From positions 1 to 31,790 of the IMG/VR virus record IMGVR_UViG_3300036832_000150: DNA of 31,790 bases; one strand, given 5' to 3'. The translations under genes and the position numbers were made by a program. The stretch is from a virus. Shown piece by piece: positions 6,050 through 20,878 of the stretch. Position 1 is the first letter of the stretch. Each line of letters starts with the position of its first letter. The notes under the pieces are model-generated. The model ran no database searches. It was not told where the DNA came from and worked only from the letters and a program-made list of their open reading frames with translations.

Positions 6050-6433
6050 ATGAAGACACAGACGAAAAGCACGAGCACCAAGATTGCATACGGTGAGACT
6101 CTCAAGACGGCCATTCCTTATTCCTACTCATGGAACGCATTCGAGACAATCGACGAGGTCAAAGCCGCTGACAAGATGATGTCAGACGAGGATATCATCA
6201 AATTCCGCAACAACGAGAAGCTTGCAGCCGCGCGTTCCGCTGCGCTGACTGAAGCGCTTAAGGCAGCGGGTTACGAAAAGCCCACACTGGAGACTGACGA
6301 CCAGTTGAAGCTTCGCGAAATGGTCAAGGTGCTCCGCGCGGTCAAGAACAAGAATGGTGAAGCGAAGTTTACTGAGGCACAGGCTAAGGACATTGCCTCA
6401 AACACTCTCGGTCTCGAATGGGCCACTGAGTAA
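6050..6433 (+). CDS. Conserved early phage protein of unknown function (127 residues)
   Basis: This is the first gene of the rightward operon, with AGGAG 8 nt before the ATG. It is soluble and helical: a Thr/Lys-rich N-terminus, a central acidic stretch (DEVKAADKMMSDEDIIKF), then two Ala/Glu/Lys helices and a closing LEWATE. The pattern of a short beta start followed by a helix with KFRNNEKLAAARSAALTEAL and KPTLETDDQLKL resembles small early phage proteins I have seen without a known function. High codon regularity and first-gene position suggest abundant expression. Confidence 0.75.
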   Translation: MKTQTKSTSTKIAYGETLKTAIPYSYSWNAFETIDEVKAADKMMSDEDIIKFRNNEKLAAARSAALTEALKAAGYEKPTLETDDQLKLREMVKVLRAVKNKNGEAKFTEAQAKDIASNTLGLEWATE

Positions 6434-7124: not shown

Positions 7125-7136
7125 CCACTATAAATA

Positions 7137-7171
7137 GTGTCTCCTTTTGAGGTCAAATAAAAAGGGGACAC
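7137..7171. other. 12-bp hairpin opening the structured region
   Basis: GTGTCTCCTTTT (7137-7148) pairs with AAAAGGGGACAC (7160-7171), with one T-G pair and an 11-nt loop. On the plus strand no T-run follows it. Its sequence theme (GTCTCCTTT with GGGGACA) returns in a second hairpin at 8314-8331. Confidence 0.55.
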
Positions 7172-7194
7172 CTCACTCACACACCTAACACGAC

Positions 7195-7220
7195 GGGGCG
7201 CAAAGGGGATAGGGGTGGGG
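7195..7220 (+). other. Four-run G-quadruplex motif
   Basis: Four GGGG runs at 7195-7198, 7205-7208, 7212-7215 and 7217-7220 have loops of 6, 3 and 1 nt, an ideal intramolecular G4 pattern on the plus strand. A further GGGGGG run follows at about 7244. It lies in the left arm of the inverted-repeat region. Confidence 0.75.
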
Positions 7221-7400
7221 ACAGGAATTCATAAATACATGTAGGGGGGAGTGGGTAGAATAGTTGTAGTTAAAAGGTATAGTAATTTTTTTTTTTTATT
7301 TTTTTTTCATAAGGATTATTATTATATCTACTACACTCACCCCCTACACTTATGCTGGCATACTTACTGCATACATCTACCTTGGCACGCCCCTTGCGCC

Positions 7401-7429
7401 TTGACAAGCCCGAAGGGGTATGCCATAAT
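7401..7429 (+). promoter_or_regulatory. Strong sigma70-like promoter with extended -10
   Basis: TTGACA (7401-7406) is a perfect -35. A 17-nt spacer ends in TGC, followed by CATAAT (7424-7429), 5 of 6 for the -10. Initiation near 7436 would give a leader of about 130 nt with a GTCCCC/GGGGAC hairpin (7462-7483) before the gene at 7565. This is the best promoter in the window. Confidence 0.75.
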
Positions 7430-7564
7430 CGCGCCCATCGGGATAGGTGTGAGTGAGAGGTGTCCCCGTCCTAAAAAGGGGACTAAATGGCTCACTTTGG
7501 GACACTTGGCATGAAATCGAAGCGAACGAAAATCGAAGATACACATATCAGGCAGAAGTATTGA

Positions 7565-7870
7565 ATGACAGACGTCCCCGACGCCGGACCTAATTATAGC
7601 GTCCATACGGAGCAGATACAAATGATAAAACCACAGATCAGCGCTAGAAAAGATACGCGCTTGCATAAGTTTATACGTACTCCGACGCTTAGTAGTCATA
7701 TATGGAAATGCGTAGACTGTAAGTGGTTCGTGCATGCAGGTCAGGCTTATCGCGTCATTGGTAAGTGGCATAAATGTTGGACCTGCAACGAAACGTTTCA
7801 GATGTCTGTTGATGCCATGCAGAATGAAATGCCGGTATGTGACGAATGCAGTCGAAAGGACAGGCTATGA
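7565..7870 (+). CDS. Zinc-ribbon-like protein A of a tandem pair (101 residues)
   Basis: Three CxxC pairs appear in order: CVDC (about 49-52), CWTC (about 71-74) and CDEC (about 93-96), with conserved HKFIRTP, IWKC and EMP segments. The spacing suits one or two zinc-binding knuckles. The next gene repeats this layout (HKYIRIT, VWKC, CWNC, EMPHCIDC), so the two are tandem duplicates. The first 26 residues are variable, and an internal ATG at residue 20 is an alternative start. The stop overlaps the next start as ATGA. Cys-rich small proteins of early operons often bind DNA, RNA or host polymerase; the target is unknown. Confidence 0.75.
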   Translation: MTDVPDAGPNYSVHTEQIQMIKPQISARKDTRLHKFIRTPTLSSHIWKCVDCKWFVHAGQAYRVIGKWHKCWTCNETFQMSVDAMQNEMPVCDECSRKDRL

Positions 7871-8289
7871 CTAGACAGAAGCATACGCACAAGTACATAC
7901 GCATCACAGCGAAGCATAGCTTTGTCTGGAAATGCGCGCTAGAAGGCTGTAATCATTTCGTCTACGGAGCACAGGACTACATAGTCGAAGGTCGGCAGTC
8001 AATTTGCTGGAATTGTGGTCAGTCATTCGTACTAGATCGCGAGCGTATGAAGCAAGAAATGCCACACTGTATAGACTGTACAGGTATTGAAGTAATCGGT
8101 CCGTCAGACAGGACTCAGCCCGTCAGTCAGCCAGTTCAGAAGCCAGTCGAAGCAAGTAAGCCAGTCAAGCTAACGGAGCAAGAAAAGCTACGCATAGCGC
8201 ACTACGTTCAGTTAGGCGTGACGAAGGAACACGCGACGAAGGTAATTCTCGAATTACGCGAGACGAAGCCAGATACACAGACTCACTAG
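7867..8289 (+). CDS. Zinc-ribbon-like protein B of the tandem pair (140 residues)
   Basis: The start at 7867 overlaps the preceding stop as ATGA. The N-terminal 70 residues repeat protein A: HKYIRIT, a Cys-containing VWKCALEGC, CWNCGQSF and CIDC. Protein B then adds a Pro/Val/Lys linker (PVSQPVQKPVEASKPV) and a C-terminal helical module (about 100-135, LTEQEKLRIAHYVQLGVTKE) that looks like a small UBA- or CUE-type or helix-turn-helix fold. The extra module suggests divergence of function after duplication. Its family is not recognised. Confidence 0.72.
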   Translation: MTRQKHTHKYIRITAKHSFVWKCALEGCNHFVYGAQDYIVEGRQSICWNCGQSFVLDRERMKQEMPHCIDCTGIEVIGPSDRTQPVSQPVQKPVEASKPVKLTEQEKLRIAHYVQLGVTKEHATKVILELRETKPDTQTH

Positions 8290-9108: not shown

Positions 9109-9311
9109 AACGATTCTACTGCACAGTCTGTCAGCGTATGAAGCGCGTTCAGCGATGGCCGGTCATTCTAGAAAACAGGGATAGCGATAATCCAGCCCTG
9201 AGACTAGGCGAGTGCAATCGACACACTATGACTATGCGCACTTCGTATCGTCCGTCAGTCAGCCTGTCAGTCAGCCAGACGAAGTCAGCTAGCGATAGGA
9301 AAGTATCATGA
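9105..9311 (+). CDS. Zinc-finger-like small protein (68 residues)
   Basis: It starts in an ATGA overlap, 8 nt after CCGAAAGGAC. CTVC (6-9) and the later ECNRH (36-40) could bind one zinc ion. The C-terminal third is a Ser/Val/Gln stretch made by GTCAGTCAG repeats (SVSLSVSQTKSAS), probably disordered. No family is recognised. It is followed by another ATGA overlap. Confidence 0.6.
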   Translation: MKRFYCTVCQRMKRVQRWPVILENRDSDNPALRLGECNRHTMTMRTSYRPSVSLSVSQTKSASDRKVS

Positions 9312-9949
9312 GAGTCAATCAGATAGTTAAGGGAGACTGCGAGTCATGCAGTCAGACTAACGTGATACTCTACACTTCGCCTCACGGCATTCAACTATGC
9401 GTGACCTGCACTCAGCTAGAAAACGAAGCGATACGTAACCAGATTCAGTCAGTCAGTCAGCGAGACGAAGTCCCGCAGACGAAGGAAGACTTATTTCTCG
9501 CCGAACGTACTCCGATGATCGCACTCCGTGGCATGATCGACGCAGACACTTCCATACAGCCGACTCAGAAGGACTACGAATACGCGCGGCTGTGTCAAGA
9601 GCGCATGCAACAGATGCAAAGCGCGCTATTCGAAGTTCAGAAGGACCTGAACAAGAAGATCAGTCTATGGAAACAGGAAGTCCAGATTACCGCAGGTCGG
9701 CTCACCGGAGATCAGTTAGAGAAGTTCAAATCACTCGACGTGAACTATCAGCCTCCAGTTCAGCCACAATCCGCGAGATCAAGTAAGCCAACCAGCCGTC
9801 AAAAAGGAAAGTCATACGACGGAGACGCGGTCGACGCACTAGCGAAGAAATACGGTATGAAACGATCAATGATTCAGATGGCCGTAACGACCAAAGGATC
9901 AATCGACGCAGCAGACAAATACCTTGCATCACTCCTCTCTGAAGACTAA
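9308..9949 (+). CDS. Phage protein with N-terminal zinc knuckle and C-terminal helical module (213 residues)
   Basis: CESC (11-14) and CVTC (31-34) form a zinc knuckle. A long charged helical middle (about 75-145) contains KDYEYARLCQERMQQM and KISLWKQEVQ and looks like a coiled coil. After a Pro/Gln/Ser linker, the last 45 residues (DAVDALAKKYGMKRSMIQMA to YLASLLSED) resemble a small UBA- or CUE-like three-helix bundle. A CAGT tetranucleotide tract (9446-9460) codes for SVSQ near residue 49. No enzyme motif is seen. It directly precedes the SNF2 gene. Confidence 0.68.
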   Translation: MRVNQIVKGDCESCSQTNVILYTSPHGIQLCVTCTQLENEAIRNQIQSVSQRDEVPQTKEDLFLAERTPMIALRGMIDADTSIQPTQKDYEYARLCQERMQQMQSALFEVQKDLNKKISLWKQEVQITAGRLTGDQLEKFKSLDVNYQPPVQPQSARSSKPTSRQKGKSYDGDAVDALAKKYGMKRSMIQMAVTTKGSIDAADKYLASLLSED

Positions 9950-9984: not shown

Positions 9985-12099
9985 ATGACTAGACAACGCG
10001 CGGCTGAACTACTCCGTGGCGAGATGAATAAGCACGGTCTAACAGACTGGACAGTTAGACTGAATCAGAATGCCGATTCACGGTATCTGGGCCTATGTTC
10101 TCACCGAGATAAGTGTATCATCCTATCGGCGCATCACATCGATATTCATCCAGATCCCGACATCCTAAATACAATTCGTCACGAAGTGGCACACGCACTC
10201 ACGCCCGGTCATGCGCATGACGCTACGTGGGCTGACAAAGCGCGCGAGATAGGCTGTGACAACACCCTACCCTGCTCAAATCTCTCTCTGTCTCCAGACG
10301 TGATAGATGCGATACGTAGCGGAGCAGACGTAGAAGTCTCCTTCGACGAGCAGGTCATTCGCACTCCGAAGTACAACATAACCAGACTACAGGACAAGTG
10401 CGAGACCTGCGGGAAGATAGCGAAGCAGGCTGCCGAGCGTACAGTAGTCATGCCAGACGATATGCCTGACATCAAGTATATCGAACTGGAATGCGGACAT
10501 ATGATAGTCCGCAAGATCTCCAAGGGTACGCCATTTCACAAATTCCAGACAGGCGGTTCGTCTGACTGCGCACATGAATGGAATAAGAATGCGTGCACGA
10601 AGTGCGGCAGATTCCGTCCATACGACTTTCAGCTCGAAGGCATGAAATTTCTGGAGACTGCACTATCAGTCAGCAAAGGCGGCGCAGTATTCGATGAGAT
10701 GGGTTTGGGAAAGACTATTCAGGCTGGCGGATACTTGTATTTCCATCCTGAGACGTGGCCAGTCCTATGGATCGTGAAGTCAGGTCTGAAATACCAGACT
10801 AGTTCATTCATCATTAACTGGATGAATTCCGACAATCCGGACAAAGCGGAGCATATTCCACAGATAGTCAATTCATCGAAGGACTGGCTAATCCCCGGAT
10901 TGAAGCACTACATCATCGGCTACGATATGCTAGTCCCCAAAACGAAGATGATGAAGAAGTCAGGTAAGACAATTTCATCGGGATTCGACATAGCACAGTT
11001 CGATCGGATAGGAATTAAGACAGTCGTGCTCGACGAATGTCAACAAATTAAAAACGTAGACAGTACGCGCACTCAGATGGTCAGACGAGTCGTGAAGTCA
11101 CGCAAGGTCATTCCCTTGTCTGGTACTCCGTGGAATAACCGAGGCTCCGAACTATTCCCCGTATTCAACATGATGGATCCGATCAAGTTTAATAGCGAGG
11201 AAGGATTTAAACGAACGTGGGTCCAGACATACTGGCAAGGTCAGTTCCTGAAGGAAGGCGGAATACGCAAGTATGCCTATGTCAACGGATCTAGGACAGA
11301 ATTCAAAGAATACACGAAGGACATCTGCATACGTCGTGAGCGTATAGAAGTCCTGAAAGAACTTCCGCTAGTCAACCGAACGAAGCTCAACGTAGTAATG
11401 GATCCGAAGGAAGAACAACTATACGACGAAGCGGTCGATCAGTTCGTTCAGTGGTTTGAAGCACAGAAAGACGGAATAGGCGGAATGGCGATTATCGCGG
11501 CAATGGCTAAGATGCGTCACCTAGTCGCACTTGCCAAAATACCGACGACGCTGGAGTACGTAGACGAATTCATCGAAGATACAGATCGGAAGCTCGCCGT
11601 ATTCGCGCATCACCGGGATGTTCAGGACATCTTATTTCAGGAATTGAAGGAAAAGTATTCAGGTGGAATTCCAGTCCTGAAGATAGTCGCGGATATGAAT
11701 GCGTATAAGCGGAACGAAGCTGCTGATCAGTTCAACTCTGCTCCACGCGCAATCCTCGTAGGAAGTCAGTTAGCAATGGGAGAAGGTCTGAATCTCCAGA
11801 CATGTTCAGATTGTGTAATGCACGAGAGACAATGGAATCCCGGTAAGGAGGAACAATGTGAAGGTCGATTCATTAGAATTGGACAGACAGCCGAGTCAGT
11901 CAATTCAGTGTACGCGCATATGGAAGGTCTGACGGCGATAGATGCGCAGTTAGACGCGATCGTCTCACGGAAGCGAATCCAATTCCACGACTGGACAGGT
12001 ACCGAAGCAGCGAAGTGGAGCGAAGATAGTCTAATGAAGGAACTAGCAGTCAGCATAGTAAACGCGCACAACGCCAAGCGTGGGCGCAAGTCAGCGTAA
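9985..12099 (+). CDS. Fusion of SprT-like metalloprotease domain and SNF2-family helicase/translocase (704 residues)
   Basis: Residues 1-100 are SprT-like: HEVAH at 66-70 is the zinc HExxH site and GHAHDATWADKAREIGC follows as in SprT/Spartan, which degrade proteins crosslinked to DNA. Residues 130-215 hold CETC, ECGH and CTKC zinc-ribbon pairs. From about 218 (FQLEGMKFLE, the Q-motif region) comes an SF2/SNF2 ATPase: DEMGLGKT at 237-244, DECQ at 350-353 (motif II), SGTPWNN (motif III) and EGRFIRIGQ (motif VI). SNF2-type phage proteins translocate on double-stranded DNA. The fusion suggests clearing of bound or crosslinked host proteins ahead of the fork. Its short gap to the gene block before and after suggests one operon. 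Confidence 0.85.
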   Translation: MTRQRAAELLRGEMNKHGLTDWTVRLNQNADSRYLGLCSHRDKCIILSAHHIDIHPDPDILNTIRHEVAHALTPGHAHDATWADKAREIGCDNTLPCSNLSLSPDVIDAIRSGADVEVSFDEQVIRTPKYNITRLQDKCETCGKIAKQAAERTVVMPDDMPDIKYIELECGHMIVRKISKGTPFHKFQTGGSSDCAHEWNKNACTKCGRFRPYDFQLEGMKFLETALSVSKGGAVFDEMGLGKTIQAGGYLYFHPETWPVLWIVKSGLKYQTSSFIINWMNSDNPDKAEHIPQIVNSSKDWLIPGLKHYIIGYDMLVPKTKMMKKSGKTISSGFDIAQFDRIGIKTVVLDECQQIKNVDSTRTQMVRRVVKSRKVIPLSGTPWNNRGSELFPVFNMMDPIKFNSEEGFKRTWVQTYWQGQFLKEGGIRKYAYVNGSRTEFKEYTKDICIRRERIEVLKELPLVNRTKLNVVMDPKEEQLYDEAVDQFVQWFEAQKDGIGGMAIIAAMAKMRHLVALAKIPTTLEYVDEFIEDTDRKLAVFAHHRDVQDILFQELKEKYSGGIPVLKIVADMNAYKRNEAADQFNSAPRAILVGSQLAMGEGLNLQTCSDCVMHERQWNPGKEEQCEGRFIRIGQTAESVNSVYAHMEGLTAIDAQLDAIVSRKRIQFHDWTGTEAAKWSEDSLMKELAVSIVNAHNAKRGRKSA

Positions 12100-16459: not shown

Positions 16460-16638
16460 CTGATTTAATCATACTTAATGATTTAACCGAAGAATTAAGA
16501 TTTGAACCTGTCAATATAAATGTCTTTCAGATTTATGCAAGACAAAACTATCATGATATATATATCCAACCAACAATAGAAGATGCCAAGAAGATTCGAG
16601 ATTGGTTGAACAGTTTCATAATCGAGTCAGAAGAATGA
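16456..16638 (+). CDS. Small protein in an AT-rich island (60 residues)
   Basis: It starts in an ATGA overlap and ends in one with the polymerase gene. The DNA is far richer in A and T than its neighbours (runs such as GATATATATATCC) and lacks the common GCGC motif. The product has a beta strand then QPTIEDAKKIRDWLNSFI and an acidic end. It could be a later insertion in the operon. No family is recognised. Confidence 0.65.
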   Translation: MTDLIILNDLTEELRFEPVNINVFQIYARQNYHDIYIQPTIEDAKKIRDWLNSFIIESEE

Positions 16639-19106
16639 CAGATAGGATATACGTACCCGGAACAGGGAATCCTAGTGCAAAATTAATGATATTGGGAGAA
16701 AGCCCGAGTTACGAAGAGACTAATGCGCGTAAGCCATTCGTCGGACCATCAGGACGCGAGTTAGATCGACTATTAAAGGACGCGGGAATCAATCGATATG
16801 ACTGCTGGATAACGAATATCTGTAAGTACGAAGTCCAGGCTAGCGAGAAAAATAAGAAGATTCCATTCCACACGCGAGCGCAGCGAGCTGGTATAGATAT
16901 GGACCAACAGCTAGCTGAACTACGAGTTGAGATTAATGAGATTAACCCCAACGTTATACTTGCTCTCGGTGGGACTGCTCTATGGGGACTCTCTGGGAAA
17001 TCCAAAATTAGTAAGCACAGAGGATCGATCATGTGGGGGATGGGCCATAAGTTTGTTCCTACCTATCATCCCGCACATCTGCTACATTCTGCTGGTGGTG
17101 GAGAAATCAAGGGTTACTGGAACAGACAGGTAATGATCTTTGACTTCCGACGCGCGCTCACTGAGTCAGCTAGTCCATCCTATGATCTGCCTAACAGAGT
17201 CATTCAGATCTGCAATAATTCAGGTGAGCTATATGAATTCTTGGAGCGTTATAAAGACTGTAAGAAAATGTCTGTCGATATTGAGGCAGGTGGTCACTGT
17301 CTTCCTATCTGCATAGGTCTGGCATTCAGTCCGAATCATGCGATGACAGTCCCCCTATGGAACAAGGATGGAATTAGTACGATTCCTGACTCTGATCTGA
17401 CCGCGTGTTGGATGATGTTAGCTAATGTATTATGGGAGAAAGACATTGTCGGACAAAATTTCAATTATGACCGTGACAAGCTGCGACGACTCGGATTTGC
17501 CATCAGACATATTCACAGTGATACGCTCCTCAAAGCCTTTGCAATTAACCCTGAACTCCCGAAAGGGTTGGCATTTCTTACATCTGTCTACACGCGAGAA
17601 CCCTTCTACAAGGATGAAGGTATGTATGAAGGGCAGCTTAGAGATTTGTTTCTCGGATGCGGACGTGATGCCTGTGTTACGTATGAAATAGACGAGGCAA
17701 TGAATTCAGACCTGGCGGAGCTAGGTGTGACGAAATTCTACGAGAACTTCCTCATGACTCTACCTGACTTCTACCTGGAGATAGAGAATAATGGATTCCG
17801 TGTAAACAAAGAGAAGCGCGCAGCATTGATCCAGAAGTATACCGAGTGGAATGAGAGACTTGAAAAGGAGATACTCACACTTTCAGGAGAGGAAGTTAAT
17901 CCTGCATCATCAAAACAAGTCTCCGAGTTACTATTCGACAAGTGGAAACTACCTAGAAGACAGGGAACAGGAGAAGAGGAACTAACTGCATTACTGAACT
18001 TGCAGAATGGAGTGCGCGATGCCAGACATAGGAGAGTTATTGAGGCTATCCTTGAGACTAGGAGAGTTAGAAAGACTCTCTCGACTTATCTACTTGCAAT
18101 CCCAGACTATGATGGAAAGATGCGAACAACTTGCTTCATGTGCCTCGAAACTGGGAGAACAAGTACGGGACAGCAAGAACCTCCTATCAGACCTAAGGTT
18201 GACATCGTCGGCAAAGGAAGACAAGCCGACATGAAAGTCTTAGGCGCATCCTTCCAGACTCTGACGAAACACGGCGATATCGGATCTGACATACGAAGTA
18301 TGTATGAGCCAGACGAAGGAGAAGTCTTCGTCCAACTAGACTCATCCCAAGCAGAAGCCAGAGTAGTATTCAATCTAGCGATGGATGAACAGGCGTTGAA
18401 GGATATAGATGAACATGACTATCACGCACTTACTGCGTCGTGGTTTTTCGGTGGTAAGGAAGATGACTACAGTAAGAAAATATTGGGATATGAATCGCCC
18501 ATTAGATTCGCAGGGAAGACTCTACGTCATGCGGGCCATCTTGGGGCAGGCAAACGACGAGCATCTATTGAACTTAACACGCAAGCGAGAAAGTTTAAGA
18601 TCCCGATTACAGTCACAGAGGCAGAAGCCGAGCGCGCACTAAAGATATTTCATGCACGTCAGCCTAACATTCAGAGGATATTCCATGCGGAAGTCATCGA
18701 GTCACTCAAACAAACGAGGAAACTCATCGCCCCATTACCGTGGGGAATTGATGCGCCCCATGGAGGTGTGCGTATATTCTTTGAACGATGGGGAGACGAT
18801 CTGTTTCGAGAAGCACTTGCCTATCTCCCCCAACGAGCTGTTACTGATAGTACCAAGGCAGCCGGAATTCGAATCAAAAGAAGGTTCCCGGAAAGTAAGA
18901 TTATTCTTGAGGCACATGATGCTCTACTTTTCTCAGTTCGAAGAGAATACCTAGACGAATTCATTCCAATCGCGCAGAAGGAGATGGAACGGCCTATCAA
19001 TTTCCATTCCTGCTCTTTACCTCGTAGACTATTGAAGATACCTTGTGATGTCGAGATAGGAGAGAACTATATGGACCTAAGGAAATACAGGAAGGAAGTA
19101 GAATGA
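16635..19106 (+). CDS. Fusion of family 4-like uracil-DNA glycosylase and family A DNA polymerase (823 residues)
   Basis: Residues 18-49 (GESPSYEE, then PFVGPSG) and 142-150 (PTYHPAHLL) are the motifs of UDG family 4/5. The [4Fe-4S] Cys set is only partial (C57, C63). From 205 an exonuclease domain has D215/E217 (VDIEAGG), N275 to D279 (QNFNYD) and D345. The Tyr normally four residues before the third acid is Gly341. The polymerase has motif A LDSSQAEAR (D569), motif B R624, K628, H632 and motif C H761-D762. His632 stands at the position of E. coli Phe762 and Leu636 at Tyr766. Fusion links uracil removal or sensing to replication. ATG 16635 overlaps the previous stop (ATGA); a longer frame exists but is not needed. 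Confidence 0.85.
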   Translation: MTDRIYVPGTGNPSAKLMILGESPSYEETNARKPFVGPSGRELDRLLKDAGINRYDCWITNICKYEVQASEKNKKIPFHTRAQRAGIDMDQQLAELRVEINEINPNVILALGGTALWGLSGKSKISKHRGSIMWGMGHKFVPTYHPAHLLHSAGGGEIKGYWNRQVMIFDFRRALTESASPSYDLPNRVIQICNNSGELYEFLERYKDCKKMSVDIEAGGHCLPICIGLAFSPNHAMTVPLWNKDGISTIPDSDLTACWMMLANVLWEKDIVGQNFNYDRDKLRRLGFAIRHIHSDTLLKAFAINPELPKGLAFLTSVYTREPFYKDEGMYEGQLRDLFLGCGRDACVTYEIDEAMNSDLAELGVTKFYENFLMTLPDFYLEIENNGFRVNKEKRAALIQKYTEWNERLEKEILTLSGEEVNPASSKQVSELLFDKWKLPRRQGTGEEELTALLNLQNGVRDARHRRVIEAILETRRVRKTLSTYLLAIPDYDGKMRTTCFMCLETGRTSTGQQEPPIRPKVDIVGKGRQADMKVLGASFQTLTKHGDIGSDIRSMYEPDEGEVFVQLDSSQAEARVVFNLAMDEQALKDIDEHDYHALTASWFFGGKEDDYSKKILGYESPIRFAGKTLRHAGHLGAGKRRASIELNTQARKFKIPITVTEAEAERALKIFHARQPNIQRIFHAEVIESLKQTRKLIAPLPWGIDAPHGGVRIFFERWGDDLFREALAYLPQRAVTDSTKAAGIRIKRRFPESKIILEAHDALLFSVRREYLDEFIPIAQKEMERPINFHSCSLPRRLLKIPCDVEIGENYMDLRKYRKEVE

Positions 19107-20380: not shown

Positions 20381-20878
20381 ATGCGCAGGACACATGACTA
20401 TTATCCTACAGAAAAGAATCTAACACTAGGAATGCTTAATTTCTGTGGACCTTATCTCAGTGGAACAATTAATGAACCCTGTAACGGAGAGGGTCACATC
20501 TCTAGTCTCTTGAGAGAACACGGACTAACCGTAATCACGAGTGATATCGAGAGGGATGCTAGATTCTCTACTAACTGGCTAGAATCTGACTGGACTATCA
20601 CTAATCCACCATTCAATTACGCACTAGAGATTATGAAACTAGCCAAAAGATTCTCAAGGAAAGGTATCATCTTTCTTACTAGAATTTCATTTCTAGAACC
20701 TACCTATGCTAGAAGTGAGTGGTGGGACTCATTCATTCCTGACCTAGTAATCATAAATCCTCGTACATCCTTCACGGATGATGGTAAGACAGACAGTACT
20801 ACTACCTGCTGGATCTGCTACGGAGACTTTGGACCGAACAAAGGAATAAGATTTATCTCGAAGTGGAGAGACAGATGA
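20381..20878 (+). CDS. N6-adenine DNA methyltransferase-like protein (165 residues)
   Basis: NEPCNGEGHI (31-40) fits the SAM-binding motif I (E-P-x-x-G-x-G), DIERDARF follows as the acidic strand loop and NPPF (75-78) is the catalytic motif IV of N6-adenine enzymes. FLTRISFLEPTYARSEW follows as in small Dam-like phage enzymes. The length is short for the family, so the target-recognition part may be minimal. Methylation could protect the genome from host restriction. The codons are AT-richer than adjacent genes. The stop overlaps the next start (ATGA). Confidence 0.8.
   Translation: MRRTHDYYPTEKNLTLGMLNFCGPYLSGTINEPCNGEGHISSLLREHGLTVITSDIERDARFSTNWLESDWTITNPPFNYALEIMKLAKRFSRKGIIFLTRISFLEPTYARSEWWDSFIPDLVIINPRTSFTDDGKTDSTTTCWICYGDFGPNKGIRFISKWRDR

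Follow-up and report, generated by a model that had tools for sequence, protein, structure and literature searches.

In phage lambda, iterons adjoin an AT-rich unwinding tract (PMC7466680), and a promoter that lies downstream of the origin and points away from it can activate the origin by way of negative supercoiling (PMC5043065). In plasmids, the spacing of iterons generally follows the helical phase of B-DNA (PMC5043065). At the herpes simplex virus origin OriS, an AT-rich spacer lies between inverted sequences, and the origin makes use of a hairpin form, OriS* (PMC12543377), while the human mitochondrial origin OriL is a stem-loop in which primer synthesis begins at a T-stretch in the loop (PMC4256270). 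Finally, the −10, −35 and UP elements of the single-stranded DNA promoter Frpo have complementary regions (PMC11541004).

In uncultured tailed phages, rapid sequence change makes replication origins difficult to recognise. Here we analyze a noncoding element in an IMG/VR virus record of 31,790 bases, the whole of which is referred to as the window, and compare it with its counterparts in related phages. No nucleotide match to the window was found among sequenced phages. The element shares features with each of the systems above, and none of the known systems that we found combines fast-changing long arms, an interrupted T tract of fixed length, an embedded outward promoter and 12-bp repeats on one strand. 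The open-access papers searched contained no description of such an element.

Anatomy of the element in the window and its relatives

The original prediction, made from the window alone, placed a candidate replication origin in a gene-free stretch of 440 bp (7125-7564) containing four GGGG runs, a T12-A-T9 tract, three nested inverted repeats and a strong sigma70-type promoter in the right arm. All of these motifs were located as claimed (Table 1), including the near-common centres of the three arm pairs. The gap is present as well; its end, however, may lie at about 7622 instead of 7564, because an ATG there, preceded by GGAG, suits the starts in relatives better than the one at 7565.

Table 1. 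Coordinates of the element and of the genes downstream of it in the window.
Feature	Position	Strand	Description
G-quadruplex motif, four GGGG runs	7195..7220 (7195-7198, 7205-7208, 7212-7215, 7217-7220)	+	Loops 6/3/1
AT-rich core, interrupted T tract T12-A-T9	7286..7307 (7286-7297, 7298, 7299-7307)	+	From sequence
Outer arms	7164..7197 with 7434..7467	+	34 nt, 82% complementary, centre 7315.5
Middle arms	7197..7207 with 7390..7400	+	11 nt, 91% complementary, centre 7298.5
Inner arms	7235..7248 with 7340..7353	+	14 nt, 86% complementary, centre 7294
Outward sigma70 promoter, TTGACA-17-CATAAT, extended −10 TG	7401..7429	+	11/12 consensus matches; between middle and outer right arms
Zinc-ribbon protein, first gene after the element	7565..7870	+	Aligned with zinc-ribbon family A2; start may be ~7623
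Second zinc-ribbon protein, paralogue	7846..8289	+	Family just downstream of the element in relatives (18/19 genomes, tblastn)
Conserved, fast-evolving 213-aa protein	9308..9949	+	Alignment, model
SprT-like/SNF2 helicase	9985..12099	+	Pfam; relatives

The arms of the window exceed chance by several measures. With the core masked, their pairing scores 76 (z = 11), a value reached by none of 200 dinucleotide shuffles. No other position in the 31.8 kb scores higher than the core as a centre of inverted repeats (77.5; mean 27.5, standard deviation 7.2). Folding, proposed earlier as a check on the element, likewise exceeds chance, both for DNA (7125-7500, z = −5.2, with 0 of 100 shuffles at or beyond this value) and for RNA (z = −7.0). 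Folding energy does not set the element apart from genome tiles, because the neighbouring noncoding DNA folds well too. The window also has a leftward promoter-like sequence (TTGACC-18-TATAGT, 7127-7156, minus strand) immediately beyond its left arm; most relatives have no equivalent in their left arms.

Using the SprT-SNF2 helicase of the window as a query, 59 relatives were retrieved from IMG/VR; a helicase profile search returned 80 loci, many of them on the same contigs. Nineteen contigs of 42-48 kb were read, and the main set comprises 49 non-redundant elements with full flanks, for which the helicase gene served as the synteny anchor. In the relatives, the gap occupies the same syntenic place, 1.4-3.8 kb ahead of the helicase start. 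In eleven of the 19 contigs the first and last 123 or 127 bases are identical, and the position of the polymerase varies among contigs; we interpret this as overlap left by the assembler on a map that is circular or circularly permuted. The phages that carry the element form one family of tailed phages, about 44-48 kb in size and, on this reading, with circular maps. Two distant phages that share the polymerase-primase order, Mel-JY34 and LS06-2018-MD01, did not show the element in the stretches read. A search for hosts revealed no relative of the helicase in genome_contigs.

The core is conserved as a T tract with a single purine interruption, typically T8-A-T14 or T12-G-T9, with total lengths peaking at 22-23 nt; two relatives, L035 and L056, carry a TA-rich core in its place. 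Cores this rich in T number roughly one per genome (15 across 20 sequences, both strands counted). The T residues are on the plus strand in all 49 cores, partly by construction as the core finder prefers T over A, and a direct listing of T and A runs, which is free of this bias, also places T on the plus strand for most relatives. In DNA folds, a median of 21 of the 24 core nucleotides is unpaired. The conserved tract matches the AT-rich unwinding tract of lambda-type phage origins and is predicted to unwind; we propose that it serves both as unwinding element and as hairpin loop. A scan of the window identified no terminator-like site at the T tract, the G+C-rich stem that precedes the T run of an intrinsic terminator being absent.

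A long stem with a T loop is also what would be expected of a single-strand origin in the style of mitochondrial OriL, whose stem-loop starts a primer at the T-stretch in the loop (PMC4256270): once one strand is exposed during replication, the arms would form a stem and an RNA primer would be started on the T loop. The TA-rich cores of L035 and L056 argue against such an origin, for which a double-strand promoter and repeats would be superfluous, and the proteins searched, which cover part of the genes, included no recognisable single-subunit RNA polymerase. We regard this explanation as unlikely.

The G-quadruplex, in turn, finds no support as a functional part of the element. Although the motif is real as sequence, it is private to the window (1 of 49 elements) and is not kept in relatives, and it was rejected as a regulatory element. 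The GGGG runs are probably incidental to the G-rich left arm of this genome.

Pairing of the arms

Across the 49 elements, with the core masked, cognate arms pair with a mean score of 55.6, compared to 27.9 ± 1.3 when arms are permuted, and the highest value in 20,000 permutations is 33.9. In 39 of the elements pairing beats all 200 dinucleotide shuffles, and 39 likewise exceed the 99th percentile of scores from 1,200 centres drawn at random in these genomes; about 10 have no clearly significant arms. Ranked against all inverted-repeat centres of its genome, the core comes first in 10 of 17 genomes and within the top five in 15. By eye, the arms are of two kinds, GT/CA-rich and GA/CT-rich. When dinucleotide repeats are masked, the mean is 41.5 for cognate and 24.7 for non-cognate pairs, and 17 of 49 elements exceed the 99th percentile of the latter, indicating that some of the pairing signal, though not the whole of it, comes from simple GT/CA and GA/CT repeats.

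One check set by the original prediction was whether the arms are conserved in related phages where the flanking genes are. Their sequence is not; their complementarity is. The arms seem to turn over without base-by-base covariation: in the few pairs that can be aligned, compensatory double changes are rare (4 of 536). Measured over mostly poorly alignable sequences, Watson-Crick pairs make up 0.41 of double changes against 0.28-0.33 in shifted pairs, a weak excess. Paired sites changed in 17% of cases and unpaired arm sites in 28%, again in few alignable pairs and with a bias, since sites were chosen as paired in one member.

Such complete turnover between relatives, with so few compensatory changes, could also be produced without selection on the arms if a T-rich pausing site caused the fork to switch template or turn around and so repeatedly regenerated quasi-palindromes there as a by-product. 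Against this speak the lower rate of change at paired sites, with the bias noted, and the retention of pairing in about four fifths of the elements, so that we hold a mere by-product to be quite improbable.

The comparison further favours a structure at the level of DNA rather than RNA. Transcription reading through from the left could yield a regulatory RNA for the operon, folded as a long stem with a loop of U residues, an idea in keeping with the strong RNA fold of this region in the window and with the upstream genes lying on the same strand. If a plus-strand RNA hairpin were selected, however, G.U mismatches should exceed A.C mismatches in the arms, and the two are equal (145 and 142). 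Moreover, terminator-like sites lie upstream in 15 of 47 elements, compared to one in the downstream control, the transcript of the promoter within the right arm lacks the left arm, and no Rfam match was obtained. A regulatory RNA hairpin is thus very improbable.

Promoter, repeats and gene neighbourhood

The right arm of most relatives contains a sigma70 promoter that faces outward and usually has an extended −10. TTGAC is present in the best −35 of 39 of the 49 right arms, compared to 3 of the 49 left arms. By its position this promoter is placed to add negative supercoiling to the origin, as in lambda; its activity is predicted. A sigma70 promoter inside a long imperfect hairpin also recalls Frpo (PMC11541004) and would allow for a single-strand promoter of the Frpo/ssi type, in which the hairpin itself is the double-stranded promoter. 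Yet the −35 is the least paired part in folds (26% paired to the left arm, compared to 46-58% for the flanking arm) and also by alignment (51% versus 66-69%), while both hexamers are paired in only 1 of 37 elements. A promoter of this type is hardly credible here.

A further recurrent component is a directly repeated CTGTGC motif. Left of the core, it occurs 106 times on the plus strand and once on the minus strand, the corresponding numbers in a control region being 6 and 13, and arrays of three or more copies are present in 23 of the 49 elements. Copies are spaced at multiples of about 12 bp, with a best period of ~12.2 bp (R = 0.61, Rayleigh p ~1e-16, slightly optimistic as the period was picked by scanning). 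At 10.5 bp R is only 0.13; the repeats are therefore out of phase with B-DNA and lack the helix phasing of iteron plasmids. In the window neither a CTGTGC array nor any other convincing iterons were found, and the missing array is what chiefly sets the window apart from its family. Within its left arm (7168-7189), the window holds ACACCTCAC and ACACCTAAC, 13 bp apart and in two copies only, a pair that might be a degenerate stand-in for the 12-bp repeats of the relatives. Some genomes (G006, G010 and G012) have a second CTGTGC/CTGTAC array farther left, located at −970 to −1350 in the case of G010 and G012.

These findings bear on an explanation in which the locus controls early transcription only, comprising an early operon promoter, a CTGTGC operator array and a bent or structured T tract with arms, the origin lying elsewhere. 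The conservation of a strong promoter would fit, as would the second array in genomes such as G010 and G012 and the turn in GC skew with the direction of transcription. Cumulative GC skew, suggested earlier as a check, does turn within a few kb of the core, but the turning point follows the switch in gene orientation and tracks the direction of transcription, and skew therefore cannot decide on the origin. On the other hand, the nearest CTGTGC repeats are located ~170 bp or more upstream of the promoter, which is far for a simple operator, and a promoter with good hexamers needs no melted T22 core framed by pairing arms. Taken together, we consider control of early transcription alone rather unlikely.

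As originally claimed, replication proteins are encoded downstream of the element. To the right of the gap, besides the helicase gene, lie those for a PD-(D/E)XK nuclease, a Sak4-like ATPase, a fusion of uracil-DNA glycosylase (UDG) and family A DNA polymerase, and a DUF3987 primase-like protein. The UDG/polymerase fusion (16602-19106) has full-length matches in all 19 relatives searched. In the window and its relatives, the helicase carries an SprT-like metalloprotease domain fused to the SNF2 helicase N terminus, with an HExxH motif (family consensus HEVAHAL). Among the proteins searched, neither Pfam nor PHROGs revealed an O-like initiator, and none emerged from a fold search of two candidate DNA-binding proteins. 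The 213-aa protein is a candidate DNA-binding protein, its model comprising a zinc knuckle, long helices and a C-terminal three-helix bundle with no significant fold match. The model of the second zinc-ribbon protein (pLDDT 85) likewise gave no significant fold match.

The two zinc-ribbon paralogues are arranged in tandem and evolve fast, with an invariant histidine and invariant cysteines and no clear Pfam family. To the left of the element, a conserved 127-aa protein (6050-6433) is present in 15 of 19 relatives, with two gene copies in L021, L159 and L162. A DNA methyltransferase-like gene (20381-20878, phrog_799) has no match in the 19 relatives. No TubZ, ParM or ParA partition genes, which accompany the repeats of a plasmid partition centromere, were recognised among the window proteins searched or among the open reading frames of relative G003, read by eye only.

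Proposed mechanism and relation to known systems

On balance, these sequence comparisons make it probable, though well short of certain, that the element is the replication origin of this phage family, consisting of initiator repeats, a T-rich unwinding element, fold-back arms and an outward promoter. Comparison of the relatives establishes its anatomy, conservation and arm pairing. The original prediction of a candidate origin is thereby supported in part, with regard to the AT-rich core, the paired arms, the outward promoter and the position at the head of the replication operon, to which the relatives add repeats in many genomes; the G-quadruplex drops out of it. Initiation itself, a cruciform and the protein partners are what we infer from this layout. 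A phage initiator would bind the CTGTGC repeats, or some other site in the window, and host RNA polymerase leaving the right-arm promoter would generate negative supercoiling behind it, over the T tract and the arms. The T tract would then melt and the arms fold back, as a cruciform or as hairpins, which would keep the core in single-stranded form and allow loading of the phage helicase and primase. The arms would be read as structure, not as sequence, which would explain why complementarity alone is kept.

More tentatively, the origin may be one that is recognised mainly by DNA shape, a possibility for which we claim limited confidence. The arms would be selected only to pair, and once folded, the loop of ~22 T residues would be where loading or priming takes place, with the embedded outward promoter supplying supercoiling and, in many relatives, an initiator array of a single orientation and an unusual 12-bp period contributing. 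Across about 50 elements it is the layout, and not the letters, that is kept. This yields a search rule, namely an interrupted T22 with pairing arms, an outward promoter and repeats on one strand, and the natural variants are available for testing the role of folded DNA in origin opening.

The element resembles the origin of lambda in having an AT-rich tract, with repeats beside it in many relatives, a replication operon and a promoter directed away and placed to add negative supercoiling, as in lambda ri(c)5b (PMC5043065, PMC7466680). However, the lambda origin lies within gene O, whereas the candidate is intergenic, in phages for which no O homologue was identified among the proteins searched, and has an interrupted T22, long pairing arms and, in many relatives, CTGTGC repeats with a 12-bp period. 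Iteron plasmid origins likewise have directly oriented repeats adjoining an AT-rich region, but differ from the ~12.2-bp period of the phage repeats, with its low R at 10.5 bp. Frpo and ssi single-stranded DNA promoters share a sigma70 promoter in a long imperfect inverted repeat, while the hexamers of the phage promoter are unpaired in the hairpin. A stem-loop with a T-stretch in the loop is common to the element and human mitochondrial OriL, although the phage arms are much longer and imperfect, a double-strand promoter is embedded, many relatives carry repeats, and two relatives have TA-rich cores. Like herpes simplex OriS, finally, the element has inverted sequences around an AT-rich spacer and a predicted hairpin form; the arms of OriS, however, are conserved protein-binding boxes, whereas the phage arms keep only their pairing.
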